37,716 bases of DNA from a virus, in IMG/VR virus record IMGVR_UViG_3300032242_002443, positions 1 to 37,716 of that record. The stretch is one strand, 5' to 3'. The position numbers and the translations under genes are program-made. Shown here piece after piece: positions 1 through 20,610 of this stretch; position 1 is the first letter of the stretch; each line of letters starts with the position of its first letter. The notes beneath the pieces were generated by a model. That model was given only the letters and a program-made list of their open reading frames with translations, did no database searches and was not told where the DNA came from.

Positions 1-280
1 CGGGCGCAGGGCAGACAGATCGGCAGCGGGCGCAGGACCGCCCGCCAGCTGATCGGCAGCGCGGGCGCGGGGCAGACAGATCGGCAGCGGGCGCAGGATC
101 GCCCGCCAGCAGGGCAGCGCGGGCGCAGGGCAGGCAGATCGGCAGCGGGCGCAGGATCGCCCGCCAGCAGGGCAGCGCGGGCGCAGGGCAGACAGATCGG
201 CAGCGGGCGCAGGACCGCCCGCCAGCTGATCGGCAGCGCGGGCGCGGGGCAGACAGATCGGCAGCGGGCGCAGGATCGCC
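1..280. repeat. 58/61-bp tandem repeat array with internal hairpins
   Basis: Five head-to-tail units start at 1, 62, 120, 178 and 239, with lengths 61, 58, 58, 61 and 42 (truncated). Units 1 and 4 are identical, and units 2 and 5 share a variant base, so a 177-bp higher-order period is visible. Each unit carries GCGGGCG, then CAGGAT or CAGGAC, then CGCCCGC, a 7-bp inverted repeat with a 6-nt loop. Each unit also has two GATC-type words. The array begins at the window edge and probably continues to the left. No open frame with a start is supported. It lies just beyond the terminator of the minus-strand operon. Iterons, a packaging or recombination site, or expanded non-coding filler are all possible. 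Confidence 0.9.
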
Positions 281-288
281 AAAACGAA

Positions 289-320
289 AAACACCCGCGC
301 CTGTGAGGGCGCGGGTGTTT
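289..320 (-). terminator. Rho-independent terminator of the minus-strand operon
   Basis: A perfect 13-bp stem (AAACACCCGCGCC pairing with GGCGCGGGTGTTT) has a 6-nt loop at 302-307. Read on the minus strand, the stem is followed by TTCGTTTT, as expected for an intrinsic terminator. It lies directly after the last minus-strand open frame (stop at 327-329), so it closes the operon starting at 3038. On the plus strand the tail is not T-rich, so termination should be mainly of minus-strand transcripts. Confidence 0.85.
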
Positions 321-326
321 GGGTGT

Positions 327-488
327 TTAGCCGATCCTGTGCTTGATAAATGCGAGCGACAGGATCAGCGACAGGATCAGAAAACTACACAGCAGCAGCC
401 AACCAAAACAGGCCAGCAGCAGGGCCAGAAAACTAGGCTGGTTGCCCTCAGTCCTGATCCCTGTGCTGATACCAGTGCAGGGCAGCAC
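327..488 (-). CDS. Possible overlapping small membrane protein (53 aa)
   Basis: This open frame starts with GTG at 488 and ends just before the terminator. Its C-terminal half is very hydrophobic (FLALLLACFGWLLLC, then further Leu/Ile/Ser residues) and ends in a basic tail, as for a single- or hairpin-spanning membrane peptide. It overlaps the 35-aa gene at 448-555 out of frame. No good ribosome-binding site precedes the GTG, so translation may depend on coupling to the upstream gene or may not occur. Overlapping small membrane genes suggest a lysis or spanin-like arrangement, but no lipobox is visible. This is a tentative call. Confidence 0.3.
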   Translation of the reverse strand: MLPCTGISTGIRTEGNQPSFLALLLACFGWLLLCSFLILSLILSLAFIKHRIG

Positions 489-555
489 CTAGCAGGGCGC
501 AATAAACCAGCATGGGGCCGAAAATGATCACAGCAGCCAGAACATTGTCAGACAT
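448..555 (-). CDS. Small single-pass membrane protein (35 aa)
   Basis: The reading frame starts with ATG at 555, two nucleotides after the peptidase stop codon, and gives a 35-aa product. A Shine-Dalgarno-like AAGGGG sits inside the end of the peptidase gene at suitable spacing, indicating translational coupling. Residues 5-28 form one hydrophobic segment (VLAAVIIFGPMLVYCALLG and onward), followed by a short polar tail rich in His, Gln and Asp. The function is unknown. Position and size would fit a small accessory membrane protein or holin-like peptide, but nothing in the sequence proves this. Confidence 0.55.
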   Translation of the reverse strand: MSDNVLAAVIIFGPMLVYCALLGAALHWYQHRDQD

Positions 556-557
556 GA

Positions 558-1595
558 TTATGCCCCTTTCATCAAATAGCGCGGGCGATTTTCAACAGTG
601 TTTTGCAGATCGGTCAGATCAAAACCTTGATCAAGCAAAAATTGCGCGACCAGATCGGGGTGCATTTGCACAAATGCCTCAAGATCATCCTGATCAAAAT
701 CATCGTACCAGCTGCCGCGCCATGCGGGCGCAGCTGCCGCGCTGTAATACCCGCCAGAAAAATACCAGTCAGGATCAGGATCGCCCGCCTGCCTGTGCTT
801 GACTAGTTTTGTTTCATCAAAGCGCAGCAGGCTGTCACGCAGGGCGAGGGCATGGCTGATCGATTGCGTCTCGCCTGCTGTGTGTGCCCCTTCATACCCG
901 ACAGAAATATTCGTACACTCACCAACAAGATCGGTCAGATTTGCTGTATCTGTGAAGGTGCCGCCTGTGTCTGTCTGATACCCTGCGGGCAGCAGCGCAG
1001 CCAGACTGTCAGCAAACAGATCAGAACAGCACCGCTGCCCGCCCTGATGCGTGATAACGCTGGTCTTGCCCTTACGATCAAATGCAATGGCGTAATCAAT
1101 ACCCGCCAACTGATCGCCCGCATGTTTCGCAAAATCGCTGCTGCCTTGCCCGCCGATTTCCTCATCAGCAAAGAAACAATAAAGACCAGCAACACCCGCT
1201 GCGATCATTTCAGACATAAGCCAAACACCTGTGGTGCAATCAGCACCTAGGCAGCTGCTGGTTTCTGTTTTCGACACTTTCAACAGATCACCCGATATTG
1301 AAATTTTCTGATGCCCTGCTGTGCTGTGTACTGTGTCGGTATGGCTTGACCACAGCACCCGCGATCCTGTGCCGATCCGCACAAAATAGTTGCCCGCCTG
1401 ATCTTGCCACCCGCCAAAATCAGACAAGAAATCATCAATAAACCATTGAACGTATTGTGACCCTGCGGGCCGCTTCCATTGCAGCATGGTTGCCAGACGC
1501 AGCGCGGGCGATTTTGGGGCGAACAGACGGGACTGGTTGGTCTGTTTGCTGTTTTTTGCGGGTGTTGTTTTGTGGTGTTTCTTAAAAAAATTCAT
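558..1595 (-). CDS. Zinc-dependent peptidase of the M20/M28/M42 type
   Basis: The 345-aa product carries a full set of co-catalytic zinc peptidase residues: H85-x-D87 in SSHTDTVH, bridging D119 in LGADCTTG, catalytic/ligand E145-E146 in ADEEIGG, D173 in AFDRKG, and H238 near the end of the catalytic domain. Family knowledge predicts release of an N-terminal residue from a short peptide, or a related amide hydrolysis, in the cytoplasm. Residues 1-30 are basic and not part of the domain. An AGGA 9 nt upstream supports the start at 1595. It follows the 470-aa gene by 30 bp in one operon. Ala-Gly and Thr-Gly pairs are written GCG GGC, GCA GGG or ACA GGx, so CCGG never occurs. The substrate is unknown. 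Confidence 0.8.
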   Translation of the reverse strand: MNFFKKHHKTTPAKNSKQTNQSRLFAPKSPALRLATMLQWKRPAGSQYVQWFIDDFLSDFGGWQDQAGNYFVRIGTGSRVLWSSHTDTVHSTAGHQKISISGDLLKVSKTETSSCLGADCTTGVWLMSEMIAAGVAGLYCFFADEEIGGQGSSDFAKHAGDQLAGIDYAIAFDRKGKTSVITHQGGQRCCSDLFADSLAALLPAGYQTDTGGTFTDTANLTDLVGECTNISVGYEGAHTAGETQSISHALALRDSLLRFDETKLVKHRQAGDPDPDWYFSGGYYSAAAAPAWRGSWYDDFDQDDLEAFVQMHPDLVAQFLLDQGFDLTDLQNTVENRPRYLMKGA

Positions 1596-1625
1596 AACCG
1601 TTTTTCCTGTGTTGTGTTGTGGGTG

Positions 1626-3038
1626 TTATGCGGCAGCGCGGGCGAACAGGCCAAAATCGCGCTGATCCTGATGGATGTTGAAATAGCGCGGCTGCACACC
1701 GTCAGGCTCGAAATCAGACGGCATATCTGTCGGGAAAATATGCAGGGCGCGTGGCTCGTCAGACCAGCTGTCCTGTGCTTTCAGCATGTTTGCAAATCGC
1801 TCGCCTGTGATCCTGCAAACAAATGTTTCATCATCAATAACAGCAGCAGACCAGTTTTCAGATTGTACGAACAGGCTGTGAAAACCGCGCAGGGTCTGCA
1901 CCTCGACAGTATTTTCGAACGTGTACTCGTCATTAAAATCACAATGATTTGCATGGTCATCTGTATACCATTGACTATAGAGCGATCCCTCAATTTCCAC
2001 AGCGTAGTCGCTTGATACGGTTTCACTATCGCCTGCGCAGGTGAAGGCATGGTTTCTTACACAGCGGCAGCACCATACAGCTGTATAATTTCGATCTGTG
2101 TATACGGTTTCCAGATCATGCTCGTTTGCTGCATCCTCGCAACGGTCGCAGCAATAACGGTCGTAATTTTCCAGACCGTTTGTCTGGTCTGCTGTGATTT
2201 CACCATGCCTGTCGATCAGCAGAAAATTATCATCAAAGCGCGATAAGGTCTGCCAATAATCCATATAAGGCAGGACCAGTTGCCCTGTGTTTTGGCACTC
2301 TATCTTGCGCACCTTTGCGCCCCAAAAATCGCTTGTGTCTGTATAACCAGCAGACCGCAGGGCGTTAACTAAACGGCTTGCATCTCCATATACCCGCCCC
2401 ATGCGCAGCCTAGCAGGCCAGATCAGGGCGCGGGCTGATACCCTGTCAAATTCATCAGTCAGATAGGCTGCTGCCAGATCGCTGTCACCATACACAGCGG
2501 CAGGGTGAATATGGCTTTCATAATAATCTGCCGATTTTGACATGCAGGTGCGCGGGCCGCTGGTAAATACCCGCACAATTTCATCTGTGCTGGTTGCGAT
2601 TTTCAGCACCGCTGGACTGTAGGTGTTGCTGTGGCGCAGGACTATCTGCTGCACCCTATCCTGCGACATATCGGGGAAATATTTCACTAAATAAGCACCC
2701 ACCTTGATCGGGGTCTGTATGTCTGCCGCGCCTTTATCTGAATTTTGGGTGTATGCGATCAATTCGGGATTTTCTGCGAGATGGACAAAATGGTCTGCAA
2801 TAACCAGATCAATAGACAGCCAGCAGGGCGCGACATAGTGATCTGTTGCGTATCGCGCTGTCTCGCGCTGCCGCCAGTCTTCGCTGCCGATATGCCTGCG
2901 CACCTGATGTTTTTGCCCTGTTTCTGCTGTCAGGGTCGCTGCGTGTATTGCAGCCAGATCGCCCGATTTGATCAGCAGCAGATCACCTGTTTCTGTCAAA
3001 ATGTCTGCACCTGTTACTGTGTTAATTACGAAAAACAT
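1626..3038 (-). CDS. Cysteine-cluster protein of unknown function (470 aa)
   Basis: This is the first gene of the minus-strand operon. AAGGA 9 nt before the ATG at 3038 supports the start. I do not recognise a named domain. The middle (about 155-250) has a SGPRTCMS segment followed by HIHPAAVYG, ARALIWPAR and GRVYGDASRLVNALRSAGY. From memory, similar strings occur in uncharacterised phage proteins, but no family can be named. Residues 296-334 hold seven cysteines (C296, C297, C300, C323, C324, C326, C334), probably a zinc-ribbon-like knuckle. There are no signal peptide or membrane segments. Pairing with the peptidase suggests a shared job in peptide or protein modification, which is inference only. 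Confidence 0.6.
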   Translation of the reverse strand: MFFVINTVTGADILTETGDLLLIKSGDLAAIHAATLTAETGQKHQVRRHIGSEDWRQRETARYATDHYVAPCWLSIDLVIADHFVHLAENPELIAYTQNSDKGAADIQTPIKVGAYLVKYFPDMSQDRVQQIVLRHSNTYSPAVLKIATSTDEIVRVFTSGPRTCMSKSADYYESHIHPAAVYGDSDLAAAYLTDEFDRVSARALIWPARLRMGRVYGDASRLVNALRSAGYTDTSDFWGAKVRKIECQNTGQLVLPYMDYWQTLSRFDDNFLLIDRHGEITADQTNGLENYDRYCCDRCEDAANEHDLETVYTDRNYTAVWCCRCVRNHAFTCAGDSETVSSDYAVEIEGSLYSQWYTDDHANHCDFNDEYTFENTVEVQTLRGFHSLFVQSENWSAAVIDDETFVCRITGERFANMLKAQDSWSDEPRALHIFPTDMPSDFEPDGVQPRYFNIHQDQRDFGLFARAAA

Positions 3039-3092
3039 GTCCTGATTTCCTTATGTTTCTGCATGGTTGCGGGCGCGATTTTGCGCCACAAG

Positions 3093-3121
3093 TTGACAGT
3101 ATGTCTTAAAAACTGATTTTG
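3093..3121 (+). promoter_or_regulatory. Possible promoter in the divergent 3039-3161 gap
   Basis: A perfect TTGACA lies at 3093-3098. About 17 nt downstream, the ATTTTG hexamer is a poor match to a -10 box. The gap separates the minus-strand operon from the plus-strand DUF1376-like gene and must contain promoters for both. No convincing minus-strand promoter was found. Confidence 0.3.
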
Positions 3122-3161
3122 CAAGTTGCGTCATACGCTGCCGATTTTGCATTTTTGCCCT

Positions 3162-3635
3162 ATGACCAGACGCAAAATCCCCGCTTTTCCGTTGCATTTA
3201 TTGGCTGATCACCCTGCCGCGCTCGCCCTGCCTGCCGCTGGTTTCGGCATGTTATGCCGCCTGATCATCCATTTCTGGTTAACAGACTGTAAACCGATAC
3301 CCAAAAATAACGATGAATTGTCAGCAATCATGCGGGCGCACCGTCCTACTATGTCAGGGCATAAAGCGCAGATTTTGCAGATTTTTGGCGATCTGCGCCC
3401 GCAGATCGAACAGCACCTAAAAAATTATAAAACTAAGCAAAGCACCCTGTTAATTGTAGGGCAGCGCGGCAATGCGACACAGCAGGCACAGCGGGCAGCG
3501 CAGCGGGTGACTGATCTGCCTGCCGCTGCCGATCCTGCCGCCCTGCACCCGCTGCGCCCTGTCAGACAGCGCAACAGATCGCCTGCGGGTACAATGCCGC
3601 GCAGCGACAGCGGCAGCAGCAGCTGGTCAGACTGA
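3162..3635 (+). CDS. DUF1376-like small phage protein
   Basis: The 157-aa product begins MTRRKIPAFPLHLLADHPA and continues with a pattern typical of DUF1376 proteins: Pro-x-Phe-Pro-Leu, a Leu/Ala helix, a short His-Phe-Trp segment and a Asn-Asp-Glu-Leu turn. Such proteins usually sit in phage replication or regulation regions, and their function is unclear. The C-terminal third is Ala/Pro/Arg/Ser-rich and looks like expanded low-complexity sequence, matching the DNA that follows. The frame is also open to a TTG at 3126, but the ATG at 3162 fits the family start better. Neither has a good ribosome-binding site. It is transcribed divergently from the peptidase operon and probably ends at the hairpin at 4117. 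Confidence 0.5.
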   Translation: MTRRKIPAFPLHLLADHPAALALPAAGFGMLCRLIIHFWLTDCKPIPKNNDELSAIMRAHRPTMSGHKAQILQIFGDLRPQIEQHLKNYKTKQSTLLIVGQRGNATQQAQRAAQRVTDLPAAADPAALHPLRPVRQRNRSPAGTMPRSDSGSSSWSD

Positions 3636-4110
3636 TCTGCCTGCGCCCGCTGCCTGCGCGGGTCGCTGCTTGTGTCTAAAAAATTTTTCACAAAAATTTT
3701 TTAGACCGTTGCACCTGATCGCCTGATCGCCTGATCGCCTGATCGCCCGCCCGCAGGATCGCTGCCGCCCGCTGCCGATCCTGCCGCTGCCGATCCTGCC
3801 GCAGCTGCCGATCCTGCCGCAGCTGCCGATCCTGCCGATCCTGCCGCAGCTGCCGATCAGGGCGCAGCTGCCGCTGCCTGCCGCCAGCTGCCGCTGCCGC
3901 CCGCTGCCGATCTGCGCCCTGATCGCCCGCAGCTGCCGCCCGCTGCGCCCGATCCTGCCGCAGCTGCCGCTGCCGATCTGCCGCCCGCTGCCGCTGATTT
4001 TTATTTTCCGATCCTGCCCGCTGCGCCCGCTGTCGCTGCCGATTTTCGCCCGCCCTGCGCCCGATCCTGCCGCTGCGCCCGCCCTGCCTGCCCGCGCCCG
4101 CTGCCGCGCC
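3636..4110 (+). repeat. Non-coding low-complexity tract of CTGCC/GATCC/GCCCGC words
   Basis: No gene is supported here. The tract is assembled from a few words in changing order (CTGCCGATC, CTGCCGCAG, GCCCGC, GATCGCC). Early on, GATCGCCT is repeated four times near 3718-3745. The plus strand is C-rich. The same words, read on the minus strand, make up the array at 1-280, so both arms carry them in the sense direction of the adjacent transcription unit. A stop-free frame from 3735 reads Ala-Asp-Pro repeats, but it lacks a start codon and resembles the tail of the preceding gene. Confidence 0.75.
3674..3706. repeat. AT-rich perfect 15-bp hairpin
   Basis: The 15-nt arm GTCTAAAAAATTTTT at 3674-3688 is followed by the loop CAC and its exact reverse complement at 3692-3706. 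The arm is 13/15 A/T and is set inside DNA that is mostly G/C, so it stands out sharply. A DNA-unwinding or cruciform element, an origin component or a processing site are possible. The stem is too AT-rich for a typical terminator. Confidence 0.7.
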
Positions 4111-4116
4111 TAACCC

Positions 4117-4147
4117 ATTGAAAAATCAAGAGATTTTTCAATTTTTT
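4117..4147 (+). terminator. Probable Rho-independent terminator
   Basis: The stem ATTGAAAAATC pairs with GATTTTTCAAT around a 4-nt loop (4128-4131) and is followed by TTTTT. The stem is AT-rich, so it may be weak. It lies where transcription from the DUF1376-like gene and its low-complexity tail would need to stop before the next operon. Confidence 0.55.
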
Positions 4148-4222
4148 CAAAAATTTTTGGGACTTGGAAAAAAAATCCTCTGCGCCTCACTTCGCCCGCC
4201 CCCCAAAAAATGATTTTAACTT

Positions 4223-4279
4223 AGGACAGCTTGTCCTTTTTGGTTGCTTCAACCGTTAAAACGTGGGACAACCTGTCCC
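4223..4279 (+). promoter_or_regulatory. Operator-like cluster of three N3-spaced dyads
   Basis: Three inverted repeats, each with a 3-nt centre, precede the dioxygenase gene: AGGACA-GCT-TGTCCT at 4223-4237, GGTTG-CTT-CAACC at 4242-4254, and GGGACA-ACC-TGTCCC at 4265-4279. The outer two share the core GGACA-N3-TGTCC and are centred 42 bp apart, about four helical turns, so a dimeric repressor could bind both on one DNA face. A weak promoter (TTGTCC at 4232, GTTAAA near 4256) would lie between them. The first dyad is followed by TTTTT and could also act as a short terminator. Confidence 0.55.
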
Positions 4280-4298
4280 GTAACACTGGAGTGACCCC

Positions 4299-4874
4299 AT
4301 GAAACACACCGCCAATTTGTTAACAGGACTGGCCGTCCAGCCTATAATCGACAAACTGGAAGCTCTTCCCGAACTGTGGAACGACATTACAATCAGGCAG
4401 GATTATCCCGGCTCCGCCCACAAGGACACCGAGTGCATCTTCATTCGCGGGCCAGAAGCGTTCACCCCCGAAAAGTATTTCAACGACCTTGGGAGTTATA
4501 ACTATCCTGCCAGCATGAAGTTACGGGACGAGCTTGCGCCGCTCATCAACGCCGTAAGCGCCGTGGTCGACATGCAAGAACTTGGTCGCATCCTGATTGT
4601 TAAATTGAAGCCCGGCGGGCATGTGAAGGCGCATAGCGATGAGGGAAAATATGCGGATCACTACAGCCGGTTTCACATTGTGCTGACAACAAACCCCGAC
4701 TGCACAAACACCACAGGCGGTGAAAGCACGCATTGGCCTGCGGCGACTGCATGGTGGTTTGACCACAAACAAATGCACACTGCGGACAATGGCGGTGCCA
4801 CGGATCGTATCCATATCATTGTGGATGCTGTATCGACGCTGTTCCCCGTGGGCGGTGCTTTACCTGTTAACTAG
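4299..4874 (+). CDS. 2-oxoglutarate/Fe(II) dioxygenase, Asp/Asn-hydroxylase-like
   Basis: The 191-aa protein has the double-stranded beta-helix signature of aspartyl/asparaginyl beta-hydroxylase-like enzymes. H112-x-D114 (HSD) and H160 are the likely iron ligands, and R170 in DRIHIIVD is the likely 2-oxoglutarate-binding residue. The family couples oxidative decarboxylation of 2-oxoglutarate to hydroxylation. Many phages carry one, usually with unknown substrate (protein or nucleic acid). GGAG 8 nt before the ATG supports the start. It is the first gene after the operator-like dyads, so it is probably regulated by them. It marks the return to normal composition, with the first CCGG at 4408. 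Confidence 0.8.
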   Translation: MKHTANLLTGLAVQPIIDKLEALPELWNDITIRQDYPGSAHKDTECIFIRGPEAFTPEKYFNDLGSYNYPASMKLRDELAPLINAVSAVVDMQELGRILIVKLKPGGHVKAHSDEGKYADHYSRFHIVLTTNPDCTNTTGGESTHWPAATAWWFDHKQMHTADNGGATDRIHIIVDAVSTLFPVGGALPVN

Positions 4875-4908
4875 CATCTGATACGATGGTATGAAATTAG
4901 GAGGAACT

Positions 4909-5244
4909 ATGGCTAAAGATTTTGAAACCTACATCGAGCAGCTTGCAAAAGATTTGCACGATGCCGCCGCCATGAAGGCTTGGGACATCCCGATCCAGCA
5001 CCGCACAAAAGATTCTATCTCGGCTTACCGCGCCGCCGTTGGTGTGGTTGGTGCAGTGATGTTGAAGACTTTGGAAAAGCATCGCAACCCAAAAGCGGCA
5101 CCGGAACCTGTTGCGCCCGAACCCGTTGTGGAGGAAACTGCCGTTGTGGACGCGCCTCTTGCCGCACCGCAAAGTCTATTCTCTGACGAACCGTCGCCGG
5201 AACCCCGTCGTCGCCGTCGCAACTCAGGAGAGAACGATGCTTAA
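4909..5244 (+). CDS. Hypothetical protein (111 aa)
   Basis: AGGAGG 5 nt upstream fixes the start at 4909 rather than an in-frame ATG at 4891. Residues 1-60 are predicted helical with a hydrophobic stretch (YRAAVGVVGAVMLKTL). Residues 63-111 are a Pro/Glu/Val-rich linker ending in an Arg run (EPRRRRRN). I do not recognise a family. It overlaps the next gene by 8 nt, indicating coupled translation in the packaging-gene operon. Confidence 0.7.
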   Translation: MAKDFETYIEQLAKDLHDAAAMKAWDIPIQHRTKDSISAYRAAVGVVGAVMLKTLEKHRNPKAAPEPVAPEPVVEETAVVDAPLAAPQSLFSDEPSPEPRRRRRNSGENDA

Positions 5245-5365
5245 GAAGAAAGCCGTTACCGATAAAATGAAAGCTGCCTCCAAGGAAACCAAGCCCTCGA
5301 AGATGGCTGGTCTCAAAGCCTTGCAGGAAGCAAAGGCCATGAAAGACGCGAAGAAAAAGGGTTAA
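5237..5365 (+). CDS. Small lysine-rich protein (42 aa)
   Basis: The ATG at 5237 has CAGGAGAG at good spacing and overlaps the end of the previous gene. The product is about one-third Lys with many Ala and Met residues (KKKAVTDKMKAASKETK at the start, ending AKKKG), so it is probably an extended nucleic-acid-binding or head-packed peptide. Similar short basic proteins are common near phage terminase genes, with no assigned role. Confidence 0.6.
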   Translation: MLKKKAVTDKMKAASKETKPSKMAGLKALQEAKAMKDAKKKG

Positions 5366-5369
5366 GCAA

Positions 5370-5516
5370 ATGGCCAAAGCACCCAAGACACCAATGGCGG
5401 CAGCACCGAACACAATGAAGTCTGTTGTTCCTTCAACACCAATGGCGAAACCGAATTACAACCGGCTTTCAAACTTGGGTGCTTTTGCCCATCCTTCAAA
5501 GAAGAAAAAGAAATAG
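5370..5516 (+). CDS. Small basic protein (48 aa)
   Basis: It starts 4 nt after the previous stop, with AAGG a little upstream. The product begins MAKAPKTPMAAAPNTMK, repeats a TPMA motif (TPMAAAP, TPMAKPN) and ends in a HPSKKKKK tail. It is likely disordered and positively charged. The function is unknown. The tight spacing on both sides supports it as a real member of the operon. Confidence 0.55.
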   Translation: MAKAPKTPMAAAPNTMKSVVPSTPMAKPNYNRLSNLGAFAHPSKKKKK

Positions 5517-5519
5517 AAT

Positions 5520-5723
5520 ATGCCTAGAGTGTATTTGAAAAAACCGGATGCAAAAAAAGAAAAGGTGACAGTCCCGGTGTCACCTGAGTTTTTGGAACGC
5601 TTGAAGCGTTACGCATATACCATCAAGGTTTCCTACACTCAGGCGGCACGGGATTTGATTGCTAAGGGTTTGGATCAGGAGGCTGCAAATGACAAACATT
5701 CAAGAACTAATTCTCCGGTGTGA
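5520..5723 (+). CDS. Ribbon-helix-helix-like small DNA-binding protein (67 aa)
   Basis: The product has a short basic lead, a VTVPVSPEFLERLKRYA strand-helix segment and a second helix (YTQAARDLIAKGLDQ), the usual order of a ribbon-helix-helix (CopG/Arc-like) domain. Such proteins bind DNA as dimers. It could be a regulator, or it could help the terminase recognise DNA, since no separate small terminase is recognisable. It overlaps the next gene by 35 nt, and the last residues after the helix are probably unstructured. Confidence 0.6.
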   Translation: MPRVYLKKPDAKKEKVTVPVSPEFLERLKRYAYTIKVSYTQAARDLIAKGLDQEAANDKHSRTNSPV

Positions 5724-5961
5724 AGCTGTAATCGGTGAGTGGGCTGAACGGGCCATTACGATTGAGACAGTGCAGGACTTTGCGGCGGTGTTTGATCTGG
5801 CACTTAATTTGCAGCTGGTTCCAGTGAACGAAATGGACGTTCCGCAACAGGCTCCTGCGAAGGAAGCTCCGGTGACTTACGTCGATCTTGATCTGACGGA
5901 AGGCGACCAGCAGATGCTCGGCAGCTGGCGTGAACGCAACGGACTGAATAATGGCCGATGA
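5689..5961 (+). CDS. Hypothetical acidic protein (90 aa)
   Basis: AGGAGG seven nucleotides before the ATG at 5689 favours this start over 5659. The product is acidic and mostly helical in its first half (IQELILRCEAVIGEWAERA), with a Pro/Ala linker and a conserved-looking C-terminal DLDLTEGDQQMLGSWRERNG. It overlaps the J-domain gene by 11 nt. I do not recognise a family. The location directly before the J-domain and terminase genes makes a packaging-accessory role possible. Confidence 0.6.
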   Translation: MTNIQELILRCEAVIGEWAERAITIETVQDFAAVFDLALNLQLVPVNEMDVPQQAPAKEAPVTYVDLDLTEGDQQMLGSWRERNGLNNGR

Positions 5962-6595
5962 ACTGTATGATGTGCTGGGCGTTGGCAAAGAGGCAACGGC
6001 AGCAGACATCAAGAAAGCCTATCGCCGCAAGGCGAAGTCAGAGCATCCCGATGCGGGGGGTAGTTCCGAAAAGTTTACGGAGCTGACCCTCGCATACGAG
6101 TGCCTGTCCGATGACGACAAGCGGGATCGGTATGACCGCACCGGCGAAATTGGCGGTTCGTCCCTTGACCAAGAGCTGAACCAAGCACTGTCGATTGCGA
6201 CAGGTGCAATCAATGCTGTCATGCAAGAGATTGCCCGCCGGGGTTTGAAGCTGGAAAACTTTGATGTGCTGGGCGATGCCGTGCGGACAATCGAAGCGCA
6301 GATCGAGGCAACCAAGGATGCAATCAAACAGCACCAGCTTGAAGGCGCAAAGCTCGAACGTCTGTCGCTGAAGTTTAAAGCAAAAAAAGGCAAGACCAAT
6401 CGCTTTGGACCCATCTTGCTGGCACAAGCGAAAGACCGGTTTCGTCAGGCAGAAGTCAACATGCAAACCAATGTGAGGTTGCAAAAAGCCGTAACTATAT
6501 TGGATGACCATAACTTTGAATGGACACCACTTGAAGATGTTATGGTGGAACCGATGACCCCGTTTGGTAACTCTGGATTTATGCAATGGCGTTGA
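5951..6595 (+). CDS. J-domain (DnaJ-like) protein
   Basis: Residues 4-65 form a clear J domain: LYDVLGVGKEATAADIKKAY, the HPD motif at 32-34, and the fourth helix (DDDKRDRYDRTGE). The HPD motif is what stimulates the ATPase of Hsp70/DnaK. No Gly/Phe region or zinc-binding repeats follow, so it is a minimal J protein. Residues 75-214 are mainly helical, with a long charged segment (IEAQIEATKDAIKQHQLEG) that may bind a phage client. It overlaps the terminase gene by 10 nt, so the two are co-translated. A role in recruiting host DnaK to packaging or head assembly is inferred. Confidence 0.85.
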   Translation: MADELYDVLGVGKEATAADIKKAYRRKAKSEHPDAGGSSEKFTELTLAYECLSDDDKRDRYDRTGEIGGSSLDQELNQALSIATGAINAVMQEIARRGLKLENFDVLGDAVRTIEAQIEATKDAIKQHQLEGAKLERLSLKFKAKKGKTNRFGPILLAQAKDRFRQAEVNMQTNVRLQKAVTILDDHNFEWTPLEDVMVEPMTPFGNSGFMQWR

Positions 6596-9306: not shown

Positions 9307-9320
9307 ATTACTTCTTTTTT
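9300..9320. terminator. Convergent palindromic terminator embracing both stop codons
   Basis: GAAGTAAATTACTTC (9300-9314) is a perfect palindrome around A9307, with AAAAACT upstream and TTTTTT downstream. Both strands could therefore form a short hairpin followed by a T run. The plus-strand stop TAA (9304-9306) and the minus-strand portal stop (9308-9310) are separated by one base and both lie in the stem. The stem is short and AT-rich, so strength is uncertain. Confidence 0.6.
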
Positions 9321-11098
9321 CCGCCGCCTGAGTGAGTTTGCATTTTGATTGCTTGTTCTTGGGCGGCGGCTTCGGCTTTTGCCACGTCGCGTCGCATAAT
9401 GCTTGCGCGTAGCTCGTCCGGGTCTGGCGCGTCCACATGATCGACGAGCTGCGATGGAGTCATCGCACCAATCTTGACCAAGTTGAACGCCAGCTCTTTT
9501 GCATCCATTGCGAAAGCGGGCGACGACGAATGAGAGTCAATCATCAACGTCACATCTTCCGGCAAGTCGGCAAAAGTAAACGTGACCGGCACCGTGCCTT
9601 TGGCTGGTGGAATGATGAACTGGTCTTCACCCGGAAGTGATGTGTCCTCAAGACCCGCCTGTTCTTTTGGAACCCACGCGATAAGGTTCTGGTCAAGGTG
9701 TGCGCGTGCCAGATCAAGCAGACATGCGCCAAACTTTTCCACATCACGTTCAACAAGCAGTGCGCGATCTTTGAAGCGCGGTGAGAACATACGCACCAAT
9801 GTTTCTGCGTGTTGCGCAGAACGCACACCGGCTTCGCCTTGGCCTTTGGCGATAGGAGGCAAACCCATCATCTCGTCGAACATGCGCTCATATTCATGCA
9901 ACGAGTGCCATAGGGCTTCGGGAATTTGCACGTTGTCGCGTTCGATCTTTGCGTTGGGGTTTTGGTCAGTCCAGTAGCCGCCCGGGCGGTTGAAGCGCGA
10001 CAGCGCGGTCTGGTTTACACCGGTCGAGCCGACAAATTTTGTGGGCGGGTCTTCTGACTTGCGCAGCAACCGGTTGATACCCGTGATGCGAGAGTTGATT
10101 GCTTCTTGTAGCAGAATGAGGCGGGAAACTTCCGAGCCACCCCAGAAATAGCCCGGCACAGGGTTCGCGCAGAACGTGTTGAATGGGTGGTTGCCCTTCA
10201 AACAAGGTTCGGTCTGCTGTGTGCCCGGGTTATAGGAGAACGCATTGATCGACATATATTTACCGGCAATCAGAATGTCATCGCCGATGATTTGGAACGT
10301 GGCCCAGTCGCCGCGCTTGCTATCCCACACCCAGACTTCATCCATTTCCAGCATCGAGGCTTCAACAGCTGGGTCAATGTTGGGGCGTGGCTGTGACATC
10401 CAATCCACAAGGCCGCGACTGGGGTTGGGGTTCGACGAACCGGCAGCTTGGAATGGGTAGAGGCCGCCGGTGACAATGTTCATAGCCGAAGCGGAGGCTT
10501 CTTTCATGCCGCCTGTTGTGCTGCGCATGTAGGCTTTTGCGCGGTCAAGCAGCTCACGCTCGTCTGGGCGACCTTTCACAAGATTGCGGAACTGTGTCGG
10601 GTTGATCAACATGCGGTGCGTAAACGCTTCCATGTCGGGATCGAGCTTGGTGTGATTTTCGTGCAACACACCAAAATTTTCCGGCTGGACCAACTCGCAC
10701 TTGAACTCGCGGTTAACCGCACCCGCTTTGATGATACCAATACCTTTACGAAGACTGATACCGACAGCTTGAGAAATCAAACTGTCCGCGTCAATCTGCC
10801 GACAGATACTCCTGATCTTCGATGCGGCAGACCTACCCTTGGCTTGGTTGACCACATTAGGGATTTCCGAGTCGGTGATGGCAAATCGCAAGGACACAGG
10901 GGAGAACAGCAGTGATTCGAGATCATCGAGCGCCGCGTATGTTTTATTAAACATGGCGGGCGCGGATGCGTCGGACGACCCAGCAGTCGCGTAGGACTCA
11001 TAAAAGGCTCCTCTATTTTGCCTCGCTTGGCGCGAAGACATACAAACATCGGCGATGTTTCGGGCGAAACCTTCGATGTCGCGGCTTGGTATTAGCAT
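9308..11098 (-). CDS. Portal protein (inverted relative to neighbours)
   Basis: The 596-aa protein has the order expected of a podoviral portal: a helical N-terminus, a wing/stem region, the segment SRITGINRLLRKSEDPPTK before the channel helix, and a long helical C-terminal crown ending in GGGKKK. The dodecameric portal would be the DNA channel and terminase dock. AGGAT about 9 nt upstream supports the ATG at 11098. It is transcribed against both the terminase operon and the capsid operon, which is unusual because terminase and portal are normally co-directional. No sign of frameshift or decay is seen. Confidence 0.85.
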   Translation of the reverse strand: MLIPSRDIEGFARNIADVCMSSRQARQNRGAFYESYATAGSSDASAPAMFNKTYAALDDLESLLFSPVSLRFAITDSEIPNVVNQAKGRSAASKIRSICRQIDADSLISQAVGISLRKGIGIIKAGAVNREFKCELVQPENFGVLHENHTKLDPDMEAFTHRMLINPTQFRNLVKGRPDERELLDRAKAYMRSTTGGMKEASASAMNIVTGGLYPFQAAGSSNPNPSRGLVDWMSQPRPNIDPAVEASMLEMDEVWVWDSKRGDWATFQIIGDDILIAGKYMSINAFSYNPGTQQTEPCLKGNHPFNTFCANPVPGYFWGGSEVSRLILLQEAINSRITGINRLLRKSEDPPTKFVGSTGVNQTALSRFNRPGGYWTDQNPNAKIERDNVQIPEALWHSLHEYERMFDEMMGLPPIAKGQGEAGVRSAQHAETLVRMFSPRFKDRALLVERDVEKFGACLLDLARAHLDQNLIAWVPKEQAGLEDTSLPGEDQFIIPPAKGTVPVTFTFADLPEDVTLMIDSHSSSPAFAMDAKELAFNLVKIGAMTPSQLVDHVDAPDPDELRASIMRRDVAKAEAAAQEQAIKMQTHSGGGKKK

Positions 11099-20148: not shown

Positions 20149-20610
20149 ATGTTAAACATTAGCACAGAAACTATCAACGACGTTCGATCTGAAATTGAAG
20201 AACTGCTCGCGCTGCATTGGAAAGAGATTGCCGTTTGGCAGGACATTCCTCTCGCTCCCATTTGGGAGAGCTATTACGCTATGGAAAAAACCGGAAATAT
20301 GGTCGTTTACACCGTCCGTGACGATCAAAATGCCAATAAATTGGTTGGCTACGCGGTTTTTTTTATGCGGCACCATATGCACTACAAAGATCATAAGTGG
20401 GCCTTAAACGACATCATTTGGGTTCACCCTGATTGCCGTGACGGAAAAATCGGAAGAAACCTTGTTAACTACTGGGAAAAAGACCTACAATCACGCGGCG
20501 TGCATGTTGCGCATGTCAATGTTAAGGTAGCCCATCCGGCGCTTGGTCTGGTTTTGAAGTGGTCAAAATACCAGATCGTCGAAAGTGGGTATGAAAAAAG
20601 GTTAAACTAA
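20149..20610 (+). CDS. GNAT-family acetyltransferase-like protein
   Basis: The 153-aa protein has the GNAT fold order: two helices, KLVGYAVFFM (beta 3-4), ALNDIIWVHPDCRDGKIG with a CRDGKIG acetyl-CoA-binding loop (96-102), then a helix and NVKVAHPALGLVLKWSKY. The last part is typical of phage-virion GNATs. The acceptor is unknown, and such proteins may be packaged. It overlaps the next gene by 1 nt (taATG). The Lys/Ala-rich downstream ejection proteins could be targets, which is speculative. Confidence 0.75.
   Translation: MLNISTETINDVRSEIEELLALHWKEIAVWQDIPLAPIWESYYAMEKTGNMVVYTVRDDQNANKLVGYAVFFMRHHMHYKDHKWALNDIIWVHPDCRDGKIGRNLVNYWEKDLQSRGVHVAHVNVKVAHPALGLVLKWSKYQIVESGYEKRLN

Follow-up and report, generated by a model that had tools for sequence, protein, structure and literature searches.

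A CAG/CTG-saturated block at the left end of a tailed-phage contig may be an exchangeable cassette with a lineage-specific short word

We analysed a 37,716-bp IMG/VR virus record (hereafter the window) and found that its leftmost part is saturated with CAG/CTG, which occurs at 86/kb within the block compared to 30/kb after it. GATC is also abundant in the block, with 73 sites against approximately 16 expected from base composition. Neither enrichment had been mentioned in the initial annotation, which had described the block by the sites it lacks. The explanation we favour, although with confidence just short of even, is that positions 1-4110 form a lineage-specific 'word island', a cassette native to a tailed phage and exchangeable between phages, and that the word of this island is read by a DNA-acting factor. 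The hosts of the phage are probably Alphaproteobacteria. The contig begins within the left array, so that the left end of the island is truncated and the replication module is missing. The features of the window are as follows (coordinates, strand, description).

1-4110, no strand: word island, CAG/CTG- and GATC-saturated, with CCGG, CCNGG and GANTC all zero (counts, change point, homology break, Markov tests)
1-290, no strand: left GC-rich short-word array of 58-bp units (Tandem Repeats Finder), plus-strand CAG 114/kb vs CTG 7/kb
291-325, minus: terminator-like inverted repeat ACACCCGCGCC..GGCGCGGGTGT, adjoining the left array on the 3' side of the minus-strand genes (read directly from the sequence)
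558-1595, minus: M28-like zinc peptidase, 345 aa (phrog_4191, E 2.7e-72)
1626-3038, minus: 470-aa protein with Cys pairs, whose relatives in phages adjoin the same peptidase
3162-3635, plus: DUF1376-like protein (weak PF07120 match, E 0.032; alignment; predicted model, pLDDT 78)
3672-3710, plus: terminator-like inverted repeat 3' of the DUF1376-like gene, also in L042 (self-match)
3714-4110, no strand: right GC-rich short-word array, plus-strand CTG 103/kb vs CAG 23/kb
4118-4141, plus: inverted repeat TTGAAAAATC..GATTTTTCAA at the cassette exchange junction, common to the window and its relatives L011 and L042
4223-4281, no strand: two GACANNNTGTC palindromes, at 4225 and 4267, kept at cassette flanks in relatives
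4299-37716, plus: structural part with ordinary word use (Asp/Arg hydroxylase-like, DnaJ-domain, TerL, minus-strand portal-like, capsid and tail genes)

Peptidase orthologues share 54% identity in L028, 56% in L030 and 41% in Rhizobium phage Pasto. The 470-aa protein had no match in Pfam and PHROG searches, and a fold search with its model returned no significant match. Among the structural genes of the window are an Asp/Arg beta-hydroxylase-like gene (4299-4874), a DnaJ-domain gene (5951-6595) and a GNAT acetyltransferase (20149-20610). The gene at 9308-11098, which weakly matches the portal of phage SU10, is on the minus strand amid the plus-strand structural region, and the same portal-like inversion occurs in L026, L020, L036 and L071.

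The edge of the block had been placed at 4281 or 4407, which proved too far to the right. The maximum-likelihood change point for CAG/CTG is 4101 (support 4073-4134), and it coincides with the homology break at 4110, where the DNA similarity of the window to L011 and L042 stops. To the left of this edge the word reaches into the coding sequence itself. When synonymous codons were shuffled in the window cassette genes, CAG/CTG was observed 228 times compared to 177 expected (z 9.0) and GAG/CTC 19 times compared to 55 (z -7.6). The same procedure revealed no CAG enrichment in seven structural genes, and in 12 control genes outside islands the maximum z for CAG, GAG or GANTC was 2.1. Leucine is encoded by CTG in 62% of cases in the window cassette versus 22% in the window structural genes. 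The amino acids follow the island word as well: Gln makes up 5.1% of the cassette proteins compared to 2.4-2.7% in the L028, L030 and Pasto orthologues, while Glu makes up 3.9% compared to 5.5-7.3%.

One could imagine that slippage, template switching or biased gene conversion spread the array words into the genes as a mutational process free of selection. Arrays do flank the genes, arrays and genes of the window share the CAG word, L042 has an in-frame (GGCTCC)n expansion, and lineage-specific C-terminal insertions occur. However, when the shuffle was restricted to codons of residues conserved in the window, L028 and L030, enrichment persisted at the aligned positions, with z 6.3 for CAG in the window and z 4.2 and z 2.9 for GANTC in L028 and L030, respectively, which slippage does not produce. 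Moreover, GANTC, the island word of L028 and L030, differs from the array words of these two loci (CTCGACCGC; CCGATCCGGCAGCG). We therefore regard a purely mutational origin as unlikely.

The missing sites reported in the initial annotation were largely borne out. CCGG is absent from 1-4407, first occurs at 4408 and is found 206 times in the rest of the window; GANTC, said to be missing before about 5009, is likewise absent from 1-4407, first occurs at 5011 and is found 44 times in the rest. In 300 order-2 Markov simulations of 1-4110, 18.3 CCGG and 8.4 GANTC sites were expected and none of the simulations was as low as zero, although allowing for trinucleotides leaves a modest GANTC expectation within the block. 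The avoidance also extends to codon choice, as had been proposed: under synonymous shuffling of the three block genes CCGG was 0 versus 13.0 (z -4.9), GANTC 0 versus 6.0 (z -3.0) and CCNGG 0 versus 9.5. Two claims held only in part. CCWGG is indeed absent from the block, but it is absent from the entire 37.7 kb, including the structural part, where 52.7 sites (about 53-69) were expected, and is thus not a property of the block. GANTC does occur after the block, yet its 44 sites fall well below the approximately 130 expected from base composition.

These absences had been attributed to restriction or CcrM-like methylation in another host. As stated, this does not account for the main signal, CAG/CTG enrichment, which site avoidance does not predict. 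In the version of the idea known from T7, phage DNA that enters first loses restriction sites, whereas later-entering DNA is protected or less exposed; applied here, the cassette would enter the cell first, would have lost the sites cut by the host, and would show word enrichment as a leftover. CCNGG is also zero in the L026 and L030 blocks and in the L042 fragment, and at the left end of Pasto the homologous pair of genes follows an ArdA-like gene, both as this explanation would have it. Against it, the stronger signal is the synonymous enrichment of CAG, which does not constitute a restriction site; seven relatives have an excess of GANTC, rather than a deficit, in the same cassette; and L011, which shares 98.7% of the window flank, has 11 CCGG sites in a cassette fragment of 270 bp compared to zero in the window cassette. 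In addition, 6-base palindromes are avoided equally in the block (44 vs 107 expected) and the structural part (228 vs 560). We consider restriction-site avoidance a rather improbable account, and a restriction enzyme of a host shared with L011 an unlikely cause. Avoidance of CRISPR PAMs was also rejected: although the window has little AAG and GAG, L042 favours GAG.

We infer instead that CCGG, CCNGG and GANTC are missing mostly as a side effect of rewriting toward the island word. Site-specific avoidance of CCGG, which falls beyond the trinucleotide expectation at 0 versus 18.3, may act as a second force, and methylation may be a positive rather than a negative force on the block. Across the whole phage, 6-bp palindromes are 2.4-fold depleted.

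A large-terminase search of viral contigs yielded 50 related loci. L042, L026/L028, L030/L041, L035, L020, L022, L025, L045, L039 and L048 carry a DUF1376-like gene upstream of their structural genes, and in L026/L028 and L030 the peptidase and 470-aa genes are arranged as in the window in both order and strand. Since these genes are in place across relatives, the block is the phage's own cassette. It had also been suggested that the block be mapped to other genomes; the orthologous cassettes come from contigs of several metagenomes and occupy the same place in many relatives, which speaks against foreign DNA acquired from elsewhere. Host DNA beside a prophage was ruled out because the cassette is conserved in phages, and a Mu-like end because the 629-aa gene is the large terminase. 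Terminase relatives were absent from plasmids, and only two were found in genomes, one of them from a Beijerinckiaceae MAG.

The location and provenance of these cassettes also bear on whether the cassette was misjoined to the phage during assembly. Low-complexity arrays are natural points of misassembly, and searches that may leave out records nearly identical to the window turned up no second contig with a CAG cassette; nor was the exact array pattern of the window found in other viral contigs. Set against this, the orthologous cassettes lie in the same place in contigs from several metagenomes, and conservation extends to the junction hairpin and to the GACANNNTGTC sites, which makes a chimera very improbable.

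Every island that could be recognised has a single short word at saturating density, namely CAG/CTG, GAG/CTC, CCAGC/GCTGG or GANTC. Synonymous-codon enrichment was demonstrated in the window, L042, L084, L028, L030 and L089. The GAG/CTC dialect is found in L042 and the L011 fragment, with 62 occurrences versus 42 expected in the L042 gene (z 6.7, synonymous shuffle); in L042, Leu is encoded by CTC in 70% of cases and by CTG in 0%, Glu is always GAG, and the L042 and L011 cassettes are rich in CCGG. The CCAGC/GCTGG dialect is found in L084 (44 vs 16 expected, z 9.4), where the island includes the terminase small subunit gene, and in L085 (8 vs 1.4, z 6.0). GANTC islands occur in seven relatives (L026/L028, L030, L035, L020, L022, L025 and L089). 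Synonymous shuffling gave observed/expected values of 45/26 (z 6.7) in L028, 49/27 (z 7.9) in L030 and 39/21.5 (z 7.1) in L089, and Markov counts revealed enrichment in the L026, L035, L020, L022 and L025 blocks (for example 44/11 in L035 and 38/12 in L020). In L089 a (CCAA)n tandem run (1-90) opens the contig beside the GANTC cassette. A strong island was absent from the distant relatives of the 470-aa gene (L090-L098 and Pasto). We rejected a description of the dialects as C/G-A-C/G trinucleotides, of the kind subject to Mom-type modification, which fits the window and L042 but not CCAGC or GANTC.

L028 and L030 have 9 GANTC positions in common in the peptidase gene (22 versus 18 sites); their 470-aa genes, with 19 and 27 sites, have 4 in common. 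The density of the word is therefore kept while many of its positions turn over.

The most direct view of cassette exchange comes from L011. This contig is 98.7% identical to the window over 4110-6586 and nevertheless carries a different cassette to the left of 4110, where its GAG/CTC sequence closely resembles the cassette end of L042. The structural part of L042 itself is only 84% identical to the window. Because L011 combines the window flank with an L042-like cassette, the cassette moves independently of the structural genes, as a unit; to this extent the separate history ascribed to the block was supported. As L011 is a contig of 5.4 kb, that it shares its host with the window phage is no more than likely. 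The exchange break falls on the conserved inverted repeat at 4118-4141, and in relatives the cassettes are bordered by GACANNNTGTC palindromes.

The palindrome GACANNNTGTC, often as GGACANNNTGTCC, recurs at cassette flanks and promoters. The window has three copies (3095, 4225, 4267) against 0.55 expected, and further copies lie in L026 (2955, 7370), L028 (107, 4522) and L020 (138, 3768, 4839). These sites, including the pair at 4225 and 4267, are probably operators of a conserved phage regulator. As read by eye from the sequence, a resolvase-like serine recombinase gene separates the cassette from the structural genes in L016 (191-745) and L028 (4587-5141), and the window lacks this gene.

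The relatives also allowed us to consider a replication or packaging code, in which the words would be recognised by a phage primase/PrimPol, an origin protein or the terminase small subunit, and the cassette would be an origin or pac region. In G001, which joins L074 and L026, the cassette lies between the replication module and the structural genes and adjoins a PrimPol-helicase gene. The DUF1376-like gene occupies the position of the terminase small subunit gene of L084 and L102 (1748-2338 in L102), which in L084 is inside the island, and by this analogy the DUF1376-like protein may act in packaging. The arrays of the window also have a mirror-like strand bias, with CAG on the left and CTG on the right. 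In contrast, the coding parts have no strand bias, lagging-strand priming would be needed genome-wide, and the apparent terminase small subunit gene of L089 lies outside its island. The likeness of the DUF1376-like protein to known terminase small subunits is one of position (L102): it had no PHROG match, and its model, a helical N-terminal domain followed by a single long helix (pLDDT 78), had no significant fold match. A query with the PrimPol found no match beyond its own contig. We judge a code of this kind to be improbable. A narrower proposal, that the words are DnaG priming sites (CTG), was discarded, as it fits the array strand bias of the window but not L042 or the coding parts. None of restriction, a mutational process or a replication/packaging code fits all the data.

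In the explanation we favour, word density would be maintained because a DNA-acting factor reads the word, and the word would switch when the reader switches, in line with a proposal made for the HIP sites of cyanobacteria and their alternate HIPs. Our best guess, by analogy with these systems, is that a DNA methyltransferase acts as the reader, or else some other DNA-acting protein specific for the word. The reader would most likely be a methyltransferase or its partner protein, of the CcrM/GcrA type in the GANTC lineages, and some other enzyme or binding protein in the CAG, GAG and CCAGC lineages. GcrA homologues are present in G001, G020, G009, G010 and G007, and together with GANTC they hint at a methylation-linked reader. 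The replication module of G001 encodes a GcrA homologue, a methyltransferase-like protein, a DNA polymerase A and the PrimPol-helicase, and GANTC in G001 reaches 20, 11, 16 and 5 per kb in the cassette versus 0-6 elsewhere. The methyltransferase-like protein is at most a candidate for recognising the island word. Some observations run counter to reading by methylation: CAG, GAG and CCAGC are non-palindromic sites, G005 has a PF01555 methyltransferase while a GANTC island is absent, and neither G020 (34.7 kb, with a CCAGC island) nor the partial window contig had a match to the PF01555, PF05869 or phrog_799 methyltransferases.

Several known systems resemble parts of this picture. In cyanobacteria, HIP1 (GCGATCGC) is a massively over-represented word that in some lineages is replaced by another, the alternate HIPs, with matching methyltransferases (PMC4390886). 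As with HIPs, one short word is strongly over-represented in the window cassette, synonymous sites included. Unlike the cassette words, HIPs are GC-rich palindromes distributed genome-wide across bacterial genomes, whereas here words of 3-5 bp occupy one phage cassette of approximately 4 kb and switch when it is swapped, and the CAG/CTG enrichment of the window is restricted to 1-4110. GANTC is the site of CcrM in the CcrM/GcrA system of Alphaproteobacteria (PMC3667746, PMC7987155), and phiCbK phages encode GcrA (PMC3556154). The seven relatives with a GANTC island and the GcrA homologues in G001 and others recall this system, but descriptions of it concern gene regulation, not whole genes saturated with sites, and GANTC is missing altogether from the window cassette. 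Rhizobium phage Pasto (MT708545) and Bradyrhizobium phage BDU-MI-1 have the same adjacent pair of 470-aa-like and zinc peptidase genes near the left end, but unlike in the window the pair in Pasto shows no word island. Finally, the lack of CCGG, CCNGG and CCWGG and the general deficit of 6-bp palindromes resemble the avoidance of restriction sites and palindromes in phages, which, however, yields neither the enrichment of one word nor the enrichment of GANTC in orthologous cassettes.

A bolder reading, which we hold more tentatively than the favoured explanation and consider less likely than not, is that phages carry an exchangeable cassette in which the entire sequence, down to the genes, uses a short word of its own as an address for a word-reading DNA protein, and that lineages have switched between GANTC, CAG, GAG and CCAGC, rewriting codon choice and even amino acids. 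Such a sequence code on viral DNA would not have been described before; a search of open-access papers found no description of islands of this kind in phages, which is weak evidence of novelty. When a word saturates a region to the point of overriding the choice of codons and amino acids, this implies that strong selection or a directed process is at work on that region, here a single 4-kb stretch of a phage. Since the word differs between relatives and there are natural hybrids such as L011, the word reader should be findable by genetics and modification sequencing. Word islands are thus a small, testable system for the puzzle of iterated words in genomes, HIP1 and others among them.
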